A stretch of 51,563 nucleotides of DNA from an uncultured Bacilli bacterium (lineage in GTDB: Bacteria; Bacillota_I; Bacilli_A; RF39; UBA660), in the NCBI GenBank assembly GCA_944332435.1, contig CALVJW010000008.1, positions 1 to 51,563 on the forward strand, read 5' to 3'. Below the pieces are notes generated by a model. The model had not been told where the DNA came from and searched no databases. It worked only from the letters and a program-made list of their open reading frames with translations. Shown here piece after piece: positions 2,290-51,398 of the stretch. How positions within the stretch are numbered: the first letter of the stretch is position 1; each line of letters begins with the position of its first letter. Position numbers and translations under genes: made by a program.

Positions 2290-3051
2290 ATGAATAAACC
2301 AGTAATTGGTATTATAGATTGGCCATATATGGATATCGATGGAGATTTAGTTTATTGTACACCAAAAGAAATATCTGATGTTGTGATTAAAAATGGTGGA
2401 ATTCCTTATATTATTGTACCGGTACAATGGGATGTTGATTATGCGAATACAAGAAGAATTGATACGCCAAAATTGACAGAAGAGGAAAAAGAATTATTAT
2501 TTTATCAATTATCTATGTGTGATGCGATTATAAAGCCAGGCGGAACAAAAACTTATGAATATGAAAATATGATTTATGAGTATACTTATGAACATGACAT
2601 TCCTTATTTAGGAATTTGTGCGGGAATGCAAATAATGGCTCATCATGGATATCAAAATGAAAAATATATTCCTAATATCAAAATTGAAAATACACCAATT
2701 GTCCATCGCAAAAGTGAAGAAGAAAAACGTGAAACAGGCGAGTGTACTCATGATATTATCATTTATTCTGGAACATTGTTAAGTGAAATTTATGGTGGAA
2801 AAAACATTGCAAAAGTAAATAGTTATCATAGTGTACAAGTACCGGAGATAATGATTCACAAAGTATCAGCACGTTCTCGTGATGGGGTAATAGAAGCGAT
2901 TGAAGCACCAGATAAAAAATTTCATTTAGGAGTTCAATTCCATCCAGAAAAATGGTATCAAAAAGATCCATATAGTGAAGAAATATTTAAAAGAATCGTA
3001 TATGAAGCAAATCAAAAAAGACTTGAAAAAAAGAAAGAAATTCGATTGTAA
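2290..3051 (+). CDS. Class I glutamine amidotransferase, peptidase C26 / PuuD-like
   Basis: A 253-residue soluble enzyme of the gamma-glutamyl-gamma-aminobutyrate hydrolase group. The nucleophile elbow is GICAGMQ (Cys near residue 108), and the catalytic His-Glu pair is in GVQFHPE near residue 218. The N-terminus MNKPVIGI and the KPGGTKTYEYE segment fit the family. Relatives hydrolyse gamma-glutamyl amides such as gamma-glutamyl-GABA or gamma-glutamyl-polyamines. No polyamine or peptidase genes are adjacent, so the substrate is open. The ATG at 2290 has a TAGGTGGTG ribosome site and the gene is monocistronic. Confidence 0.87.
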   Translation: MNKPVIGIIDWPYMDIDGDLVYCTPKEISDVVIKNGGIPYIIVPVQWDVDYANTRRIDTPKLTEEEKELLFYQLSMCDAIIKPGGTKTYEYENMIYEYTYEHDIPYLGICAGMQIMAHHGYQNEKYIPNIKIENTPIVHRKSEEEKRETGECTHDIIIYSGTLLSEIYGGKNIAKVNSYHSVQVPEIMIHKVSARSRDGVIEAIEAPDKKFHLGVQFHPEKWYQKDPYSEEIFKRIVYEANQKRLEKKKEIRL

Positions 3052-3063
3052 TTTCTTTTTTTT
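3034..3063 (+). terminator. Terminator after the amidotransferase gene
   Basis: AAAGAAAT (3034-3041) pairs with ATTTCTTT (3051-3058) and runs into a T tract. It overlaps the last codons of the gene. Confidence 0.6.
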
Positions 3064-47460: not shown

Positions 47461-47829
47461 GGGGCTGTCCAGGTTTCGACGGGTATAGGATGGTTTAGAT
47501 TGCAAGTCGGAGGTACACGTTACGTACAAAACAGAAAATAACTGGAAAAAATAAATTTAATTTTGGTGGAGCATTCGCTCCAACTTTCGCTTAATTAGAA
47601 TATAGCGACCAAGCTTCCTATTACTTTTTCTTACGGGGTAATAACGAGGCGCAATTTAGTAAGATATATTATCTAGTAGTCTAGATTAGATAACGAACTA
47701 TATTAGACTTACTATAAAGTGAGTTGTTGGATTCTAACACTTTATAGGAAATTAACAATCCAACTAAACTTGTAGATATTTAAGTTGTTTTATATTCGGA
47801 CGCGAGTTCGATTCTCGCCAGCTCCACCA
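47461..47829 (+). ncRNA. ssrA: Transfer-messenger RNA
   Basis: A 369-nt one-piece tmRNA. The 5' GGGGCTG pairs with CAGCTCC before ACCA to form the Ala acceptor stem, and GGTTCGATTCTC-type T-arm (GCGAGTTCGATTCTCGC) is at the 3' end. The tag frame runs ACT GGA AAA AAT AAA … GCT TAA (stop 47592-47594), giving a tag of about GKNKFNFGGAFAPTFA. It rescues stalled ribosomes with SmpB. The -PTFA ending differs from the -LAA of most bacteria and recalls -AFA of Mollicutes. The first tag codon (ACT or GGA) is uncertain. Confidence 0.95.
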
Positions 47830-48747: not shown

Positions 48748-49037
48748 TATAAATTCCTCCCCTAATCAATTATATTTTACCATAAAGTTATATTTGATTC
48801 CATTATTTTAAATCAATACACAATTTAAAATAGTTTATTAACCATTTTTTTCTATAAAAATACTATCAATATTAAAATTACCAATTTCTTTTGAAAGAGA
48901 CTTTATATTTTTTTGATTTTATTAATGTCGACTATAATATCATCTCACAATTAACTAAATTATATTATATTTGAAATAAAGAAACCATGTGGCCATTAAT
49001 TTATATTAAGTTTTATCATATAATTTATTTAACGAGT
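48748..49037. other. AT-rich spacer, no gene seen
   Basis: No open frame, RNA fold or repeat can be supported in this stretch. It is one of the most AT-rich parts of the window. Confidence 0.5.
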
Positions 49038-49157
49038 GAGGGATATTTTTTTAATAAAAGATTTAAAACCCTCTTATCAATCGCACCAGATTGATAGGAA
49101 ACTCGAACTTTTCGAGTAGTAATAAATATTAACTAGAAGTATCGTCTAGTTTTTTTG
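49038..49157 (+). promoter_or_regulatory. Candidate structured leader ending in a terminator
   Basis: Several stems fold in series: GAGGG (49038-49042) with CCCTC (49069-49073), or the hairpin CTTATCAATC/GATTGATAGG (49073-49098). Next come ACTCGAA/TTCGAGT (49101-49117) and AACTAGA/TCTAGTT (49131-49151) followed by T7. The last is a clear intrinsic terminator. Lying 28 bp before a small ORF and the relaxase remnant, the set looks like an attenuator or countertranscript RNA of a mobile element. Confidence 0.4.
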
Positions 49158-49184
49158 TTATTATAAGGAAAGTGAGGAGTTTTA

Positions 49185-49324: not shown

Positions 49325-50074
49325 ATGAAGTATAAAGAAAAGTTTTATGAAATTACTAAAGAATATCGAAAAGAACACGAAGAAAAAATGAAAACTATTA
49401 GGCAAGATAGATATAAAACTTTTAATCAGATGGTAGATAATTAAAAAAGTTGTGTGGCAGACGAAATGATATTTACAAGTGACCAAGAATTTTTTAAAGA
49501 TATGACAAAAGATGAAATATTAAAATGGGCTAATGGATGTATGGATTTTGTTTATAAAGATTTAGGCTATACTAAAGAACAAATATTACATTCAGTACTA
49601 CATTTAGATGAAAAAACACCACATATTCATTGTGTAGTAGTACCTTTTGTTAAAAAGTTTGATAAAAGAGTTAATAAAGAAAGATATTCTATTTCTAAAA
49701 GAGATTATATTAAAGACCAAAATTATTTAAGTATATTATAAGATAAATATTGCTTTAGATTAAATAATTTAGGTTTTAAATTGGAACGTGGAGAAAAAGC
49801 TACAGTAATTAATGTGCCAAAAGATATTGATAAAACACATCCTTATACTGCTACGAAAGTAATTAAGAAGATAAAAGAAACATTGGAATTATCCCTTGGT
49901 CTAACTCATAAATTTACTTCAAAGAAATTTCAAGATATATGTAAAAGAAAAGGCATAAAAAATAATCAAGATTATTGTTATCAATTTCCTTATTCAAAAA
50001 CCAAAATTTATAAATATAGTGATATAACTATTGAATATATTAGTCAAGCTTACATCGAAGAATTTAAAAAATAA
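49325..50074 (+). pseudogene. MobV-family relaxase (Pre/Mob), broken
   Basis: One reading frame with two in-frame TAA codons (49442-49444 and 49739-49741) encodes pieces of a MobV relaxase. Piece 1 is MKYKEKFYEITKEYRKEHEE. Piece 2 includes DEMIFTSDQEFF, YKDLGYTKEQILHSVLHLDEK and TPHIHCVVVPF, the histidine motif III of the family. Piece 3 is LNNLGFKLERGEKA, the block that follows it in intact proteins, running to the TAA at 50072-50074. The N-terminus with the motif I segment is lost, and the C-terminus is short. It was probably carried by a mobilisable plasmid or element now decaying. Confidence 0.8.
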
Positions 50075-50103
50075 AAAATTGTGAATAATTAATAATTATA
50101 TGC

Positions 50104-50217
50104 TATAATATATATGTAGATGGGATACTTGTGAAGGAATAACGATGTGTTGGCATAGCTAGTAAGCATACTTTGTATGTGAGCATTCATCTCGCCTGGG
50201 GTACCCATCATTTTTTG
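50104..50217 (+). ncRNA. Candidate structured non-coding RNA 2
   Basis: TATAAT (50104-50109, with TGC before it) should start a transcript near 50116. GATGGG (50119-50124) plus TAC (50126-50128) pair with GTA-CCCATC (50201-50209), closing a ~90-nt domain, and T6 follows as in a terminator. Inside, GCATAC/GTATGT (50166-50180) is a hairpin, GGC (50152-50154) can pair with GCC (50194-50196), and GATG (50144-50147) with CATC (50188-50191). The ACTTGT and TGTTGGCATAGCTA blocks are also recognisable in candidate RNA 1. No coding frame fits. Confidence 0.5.
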
Positions 50218-50285
50218 TGAAATTTAACTTTTTATTAAATAAAAGTTGTATTTAACTATTTAAGTAATATAAAAATAAAGATAAT

Positions 50286-50313
50286 TTGGAATTATAAAAA
50301 AATGTGTTATAAT
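50286..50313 (+). promoter_or_regulatory. Sigma-A promoter of the two-repeat NDT-like gene
   Basis: TTGGAA (50286-50291), a 16-bp spacer, and TATAAT (50308-50313), with TGT before the -10. It is independent of candidate RNA 2. Confidence 0.75.
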
Positions 50314-50336
50314 ATTCAATCAAAGAGGTGGTTTCT

Positions 50337-51398
50337 ATGAGAAAAGAACCTACTGATAATTATATCAATTTTGCACTATTAGGAAATAATATATATGATA
50401 TAACTTTTATGAATTATTTATTTGAATCACAAAATGTTAATTCTTATTTTTGCAACAAATATAAAATATGTGATGAAGAAAAAGAAAATATATTAAAGAA
50501 TATTGCGTATTATTTTGGCACAAGAGGTCCCATGTTAATTGATGATAAGGGACTAAGGAAAATATTTGATGATAATGAGATACCTAAAATATCTATGTTG
50601 CCCAATTTATCTTCAGAAGATATAATTAATCAAATTAATATTTGTTTAAAAAGCGATGCAGTTTATGTTTGTAATTCAAATGGTAAATTAGATAAATATA
50701 CGATGTTTATATTAGGATATTTAATGGCGATGGAACAAGAAATTTTCTTTTGGAATGATATAGATGAATCAGAGTGGTTAATGTCGTGTATTTCTAAAAA
50801 GAATAACAATGGTTATAAAGAAGTTGTACAATTCCCTTTAGAAATAATCAGAACTTTTGCTTATCCATATTTATTTAAAAAACAAAAATTAGAATTGCAA
50901 CCAGGAATATATGGTGAAGTAATAGTTGATGATAAAGGAAATATAGGTGTAGATAGAAACATAGAATTTAATTTGCAAGTGGAAAATCAAGAAAATGAAG
51001 AAAATACAATTTCATTGTTAGGTAGTTTAAAAAAACAATTAATATCTATTAAAGAAAAAGCTTTGCAATTAGAAGAAACTGGATATAAGGTTTTAGCTCC
51101 TAAATTATCAAATGTTAAAACCAATGAAAATGGATTTATAATTTTTGAGGATGATGTTAGTGATAATCCTATTGCAATAGAGTCAAATTTTATTGAAAAT
51201 TGTTTAAAATCTGAAGGTATTATTGTTTGTGATAAAGATGGTTATGTAGGAAATACTGTTATGTTTGAAATTGGATATTTACTAGCAAAAAAGAGAAATA
51301 TAGAGTTTATTGAAGAACCTAACGAACTTTGGTTAAGAGAGGTTGTAGATTATTTTTTTAAGTTAAATGATAAATCGCAATTATCTAAATACAGATAG
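50337..51398 (+). CDS. Two-repeat nucleoside 2-deoxyribosyltransferase-like protein
   Basis: The 353-residue cytosolic protein has two halves ending in the same NDT-like block. The first is DAVYVCNSNGKLDKYTMFILGYLMAM (residues 107-132) and the second GIIVCDKDGYVGNTVMFEIGYLLAKK (294-319), both shown in part. Each is the D(x)-x(n)-G-x-x-x-x-x-E-[IL]-G-Y pattern of NDT/DUF4406-like folds. Only the second keeps the Glu nucleophile (E311); the first has Ile125. So one half may be active and the other a binding or dimer domain. AAAGAGGTGG precedes ATG 50337. A terminator follows. Confidence 0.65.
   Translation: MRKEPTDNYINFALLGNNIYDITFMNYLFESQNVNSYFCNKYKICDEEKENILKNIAYYFGTRGPMLIDDKGLRKIFDDNEIPKISMLPNLSSEDIINQINICLKSDAVYVCNSNGKLDKYTMFILGYLMAMEQEIFFWNDIDESEWLMSCISKKNNNGYKEVVQFPLEIIRTFAYPYLFKKQKLELQPGIYGEVIVDDKGNIGVDRNIEFNLQVENQENEENTISLLGSLKKQLISIKEKALQLEETGYKVLAPKLSNVKTNENGFIIFEDDVSDNPIAIESNFIENCLKSEGIIVCDKDGYVGNTVMFEIGYLLAKKRNIEFIEEPNELWLREVVDYFFKLNDKSQLSKYR

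Follow-up and report, generated by a model that had tools for sequence, protein, structure and literature searches.

The locus examined here raises the question of which gene is served by a short structured RNA encoded in the window, by which we mean the whole stretch of 51,563 nucleotides that was analysed. The original prediction described a unit of about 100 nt with its own -10 element, a closing GATGGG/CCCATC stem and a terminal T-run, did not recognise the class of the RNA, and joined it to a downstream NDT-like gene to form one unit. The signals of the RNA gene are all present in the window sequence (Table 1), and the closing stem is formed by positions 50119-50124 and 50204-50209. Rfam 15 gives no match to the RNA at E<=10, whether the whole window or the region around the RNA is scanned, in agreement with the RNA class having gone unrecognised. 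The single-sequence fold of the window RNA (-29.2 kcal/mol, z -2.2) is modestly above chance. The structure is nevertheless proven, because the relatives support the same fold by covariation.

Table 1. Features of the window around the RNA gene (positions are those of the whole stretch)
Feature	Position	Strand	Basis or remark
Broken MobV relaxase fragment	49454..49741	+	Mob_Pre PF01076, E 9.1e-16
C-terminal relic (~96 aa) of a predicted DUF3644/EC042_2821 HEPN protein	49784..50074	+	Directly upstream of the RNA
Extended -10 of the RNA, TGcTATAAT	50101..50109	+	Sequence
Structured RNA, ~100 nt, orphan copy of the DUF3644-associated family	50116..50216	+	T-run at the end
P1 5' strand, GATGGGATACT, closing stem	50119..50129	+	Pairs with 50200-50209, covarying
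Conserved GAAGGAATAAC segment and P2 5' strand	50133..50149	+	GG 50136-50137; CGATGTG 50143-50149
P3 hairpin, TGGC-ATA-GCTA	50151..50161	+	Covaries among relatives
P4 variable hairpin, GCATAC-TTT-GTATGT	50166..50180	+	Arms differ, self-complementary
P1 3' strand, GGTACCCATC	50200..50209	+	Followed by T-run 50211-50216 (intrinsic terminator)
NDT-like two-half protein, 353 aa	50337..51398	+	Pfam, internal repeat

The NDT-like gene itself was correctly described as a real ORF with an intact and a degenerate half. The two halves resemble each other around VCNSNGKLDKYTMFILGYLMA and VCDKDGYVGNTVMFEIGYLLA (blastp E 3e-9), and the glutamate of the FEIGY motif is present in the second half only. The match of the protein to Pfam Nuc_deoxyrib_tr is sub-threshold (E 4e-4), phages, plasmids and 60 related genomes contain distant matches only and no close relative, and an AF2 model from the single sequence reaches a pLDDT of 36. 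The gene adjoins the RNA on the same strand at a distance of 120 nt, which would suit an RNA acting as its leader or partner. However, it has its own -10 (promoter-like sequence TGTTATAAT, 50305-50313) and its own RBS, the RNA closes with a terminator, and an NDT-like gene is missing from all other RNA loci examined, namely 20 family copies and about 150 loci elsewhere. The proposed unit of RNA and NDT-like gene is therefore refuted by the distribution of the RNA and has hardly any probability left. As far as the comparison of loci can tell, the NDT-like gene is an unrelated chance neighbour.

By DNA search (blastn) the RNA was found in 20 of the 291 same-family genomes searched, in 21 copies of mostly 83-98% identity. 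These copies stand in unrelated surroundings, and the block conserved among them extends from the -10 to the T-run. The blastn search of phages and plasmids gave AT-rich chance matches only and is uninformative, the DNA of the phage copies having diverged too far. In streptococcal satellite phages and in staphylococcal, listerial and corynebacterial phages (loci L044-L051), the DUF3644 gene has a homologous RNA at its 3' side on the opposite strand. The covariance model R1 recognises the window RNA with 73.4 bits (E 2.3e-14), the window RNA being one of the 63 sequences in the model. No match to the RNA was found in E. coli genomes. Judging from its sequence matches, the family is widespread, comprising Bacillota, Corynebacterium phages, Melainabacteria and one spirochaete. 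It is new to Rfam but may have been described earlier, given that the literature search covered mainly open-access papers.

The family has a structure supported by covariation. RNAalifold identified 20 pairs in the 63 diverse sequences, 14 of which show double-sided changes. Across the 19 named pairs 98.3% of the cells are paired, and 13 pairs are doubly changed. The covariation score is 0.451 compared to 0.167 in shuffles (0/500 shuffles as high), and it collapses in a control in which the partners are slid by one base. In P2 the GG/CC is invariant (63/63 sequences) while helix 3 covaries, and in P3 most relatives have UCCC/GGGA where the window has UGGC/GCCA, so that this hairpin (helix 4) covaries as well. 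P4 is mostly 3 to 10 pairs long and comprises 39 distinct self-complementary arms among the 63 sequences, which form 273 pairs compared to 114.5 in shuffles. The promoter score upstream of the RNA in these diverse relatives is 10.1 versus 7.9 in shuffles, and the -10 is mostly located 8-12 nt 5' of the closing stem. Scattered genomic places, inverted repeat ends and the MobV remnant in the window might suggest the end of a mobile element, a MITE, or a plasmid single-strand origin carried together with MobV. Such an element would not account for the conserved promoter, the internal invariant bases and covariation of the RNA type including G-U pairs, nor for the single fixed partner gene in phages whose neighbourhoods lack MobV, and we consider this origin extremely unlikely.

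The partner gene was identified by DUF3644-alignment searches, which gave 80 viral and 80 genomic loci in which the RNA was then sought by a nucleotide profile. These 160 loci from phages, satellites and diverse bacteria contain 146 DUF3644/EC042_2821 ORFs, and adjacency is near-universal with the RNA at the stop codon of 141 of them. As to the remaining five, three stop exactly where the contig stops, in a fourth 166 nt remain, and the fifth is a chimeric assembly. The RNA is convergent to the gene in 131 loci, where its 3' end usually overlaps the last few to about 50 nt of the ORF, and is encoded on the same strand in 10 loci, 10-33 nt after the stop. The link between RNA and gene is therefore independent of orientation. 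Further orientations are same strand in L224 and convergent in L246. Where RNA and gene converge, the complement of the RNA T-run encodes the lysine-rich C-terminal end of the protein. No RNA was found beside PF12358-only proteins (Flavobacterium, Falsirhodobacter, L234 and L235) or beside a truncated Legionella gene. In an unbiased test, 392 genomes, sampled irrespective of whether they have the RNA, were searched with the covariance model and the protein profile. The RNA was present in 14 places in 13 genomes, the protein in 10 and both in 8, always adjacent to each other (Fisher p 4e-12). The two protein-only genomes have weak matches consisting of PF12358 without EC042_2821. In addition, RNA and protein distances co-diverge (Mantel r 0.68, 0/2000).

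The frequent convergent arrangement, with its overlap of the ORF 3' end, would also be expected of an antisense or transcription-interference regulator acting on the DUF3644 mRNA in a type I-like manner. This is very unlikely considering the same-strand location in 10 loci and in the window's own family, and the strong three-dimensional constraint, which an antisense RNA does not need. The RNA is no more complementary to the start and ribosome-binding region of DUF3644 than shuffles are. The occurrence of the RNA gene on either strand argues for a product that acts through its fold, and against an antisense RNA or leader.

The intact partner protein comprises the Pfam domains DUF3644 and EC042_2821, which were both present in all 56 proteins scanned. 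A Pfam scan of the partner protein returned only PF12358, PF18740 and a weak Ribonuc_2-5A match. Anantharaman et al. 2013 (PMC3710099) place DUF3644 among the HEPN ribonuclease families. At the level of the alignment the protein has the HEPN Rx4-6H motif and the conserved acidic residue in helix 2: the motif is R107-N-x-x-T-H112 (Rx4H), and R107, H112 and E52 are invariant in 56 sequences, with RN..TH present in 135 of the 146 ORFs. The AF2 model has a pLDDT of 85, and its best Foldseek matches in the PDB include HEPN domains and HEPN toxins (prob 0.93); for the four-helix HEPN fold this is support by ranking, with weak E-values of about 0.5. Together, gene and RNA make up compact mobile modules with phage integrases and repressors nearby.

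Of the partner gene the window retains only the part for the C-terminal ~96 residues, so that the window RNA is an orphan. The relic has 80% identity (tblastn) to the intact protein of locus L027 over residues 215-310 of the latter and matches the protein profile with E 2.5e-23; the HEPN domain is missing. The MobV fragment runs in frame across a stop into this relic. The dead MobV relaxase and IS remnant of the original prediction are accordingly only partly retained: a broken MobV is present, and the window edge carries the end of a transposase (PRTPRHNGKVERSHRNEK*), but the 3' stretch of the supposed MobV is the DUF3644/EC042_2821 C-terminus. The RNA does lie on accessory DNA, as had been proposed. 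A MobV oriT or single-strand origin was rejected as a candidate since phage loci have no MobV near the RNA. Among the same-family loci, the gene is complete in L025, L027, L028 and L037, where its end lies about 20 nt upstream of the -10; only its tail is found in the window, L031, L032, L039 and L040, the tails in L031 and L032 being very short.

Several other observations concern the surroundings of the RNA. Upstream of the MobV remnant (49020-49180) there is an element with terminator-like inverted repeats, of which the window genome has three copies. It has matches in 119 of 193 family genomes, often in several copies each, and probably serves a widespread mobile element as its leader. The smpB gene is located upstream of the RNA in three genera (window, 47461-47829; L028; L034), so that a shared integration hotspot may exist; in the window the tmRNA gene (ssrA) is likewise upstream. 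A Staphylococcus epidermidis plasmid (L239) has two RNA copies about 1.8 kb apart (1137-1234 and 2964-3059), which flank a DUF3644 gene with a broken frame; downstream lies an integrase-like reading frame. In L218 and L222 (~1501-1610), from two species of one genus, an orphan RNA lies by the same 127-aa gene (MKDFLFNLSNTPKFLG...), and no DUF3644 gene is present in the flanks. The orphan RNA of these two loci may have a host role.

Taken together, the window RNA is one copy of a conserved ncRNA family whose dedicated partner is a DUF3644/EC042_2821 HEPN ribonuclease-like protein, and the RNA is the likely antitoxin. In its intact Rx4H motif and its nearly constant company of the RNA in mobile modules, the HEPN protein resembles a toxin with its neutralising RNA. 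The RNA would be transcribed from its own strong promoter and folds into the closing stem P1, the inner helix P2 and the hairpins P3 and P4. The folded RNA is supposed to bind the HEPN protein and thus to keep its RNA-cutting activity off. If phage infection, for instance, disturbed transcription or the RNA itself, the nuclease would be freed and would stop the growth of the cell or the phage. Direct binding, inhibition, and an anti-phage or addiction role of the RNA are what we infer. In the window the toxin gene would have lost its HEPN domain through recombination with the MobV fragment, and the RNA would be the leftover antitoxin. In the window, L031, L032 and L039 the protein was lost and the RNA retained, and a protective RNA would be expected to outlast the protein. 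Counting against the antitoxin are the orphan places in the unbiased search (6 of 14), the about 15 of 20 RNA-bearing family genomes that yielded no intact partner gene, and two homologues from Actinobacteria plasmids which have both domains and beside which no RNA was detected at the sensitivity used. Orphan copies score below paired ones on average (63 vs 77 bits, one-sided p 0.04), so some of them are decaying.

The RNA could also be an activator, guide or substrate instead of an inhibitor. As an activating or guiding cofactor or sensor, comparable to the crRNA of Cas13, it would leave the protein inactive in its absence and let it act once the RNA detects a phage product. The same linkage, conservation and covariation apply to such a cofactor, and HEPN effectors can be RNA-guided, as suggested by the kinship of AbiF with Cas13 (review PMC12737573). 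However, the variable P4 is a self-complementary hairpin and no guide-like variable segment is present at a fixed position, and the orphan RNAs and the erosion of the toxin first suit an antitoxin better. A cofactor role is therefore regarded as unlikely. An experimental precedent for the preferred antitoxin role is AbiF of Clostridioides difficile, a HEPN toxin that the ~100-nt abiF RNA binds directly and neutralises, acting in cis and in trans (PMC12373285).

Comparison with known systems reveals both likenesses and differences. Type III toxin-antitoxin systems (ToxIN, CptIN, TenpIN, AbiQ) share with the present modules the small mobile format and, as proposed here, an RNA that neutralises a protein ribonuclease. 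Their RNA consists of tandem repeats while the RNA described here is a single unit without tandem repeats, and this contrast to ToxI counts against the antitoxin. They also have a ToxN-like toxin instead of HEPN, and an upstream operon with a terminator between RNA and toxin, which is absent here with the RNA located 3' of the gene. A HEPN toxin fold is among the Foldseek matches (with weak E-values), as in HEPN-MNT toxin-antitoxin systems, but there is no MNT gene as fixed neighbour and the constant partner is the RNA. The intact homologue in L027 matches the PADLOC PDC-S19 models (E 3.1e-68), and the window has the C-terminal relic only. PDC-S19 is a single-gene phage defence candidate, matched here as a protein model, to which the present subfamily adds a conserved RNA; PDC-S19 would thus turn into a two-part system. 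In defence screens, a gene cloned without the RNA may be toxic and therefore be scored negative. For annotating the RNA a covariance model is now available.

A further likeness is to AbiF and the abiF RNA (RF03085, RCd22, AbiFr), which also combine a HEPN-superfamily protein with a structured RNA of ~100 nt that has its own promoter and terminator, and which are phage-borne and found in Bacillota. To our knowledge, AbiF is at present the sole well-studied case of HEPN proteins with RNA partners. The AbiF/abiF RNA pair is regarded as the source of Cas13. In contrast to AbiF, the partner protein described here consists of DUF3644 and EC042_2821 and has no Abi_2 (PF07751) match at E<=10. The abiF RNA has two repeats and lies upstream of its gene, whereas the present RNA comprises one P1-P2-P3-P4 unit and is located at the gene's 3' end, in most loci on the opposite strand. 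RF03085 has no match in 8 phage loci at E<=10. We consider it reasonably probable that the modules represent a second, independent lineage of a HEPN ribonuclease with a dedicated RNA, parallel to AbiF/abiF RNA and found across phages, satellite phages and gut Bacillota. Since nothing but the RNA-protein complex would matter, the RNA gene of this lineage would be free to change strand. If this is true, RNA-controlled HEPN nucleases are a general design.
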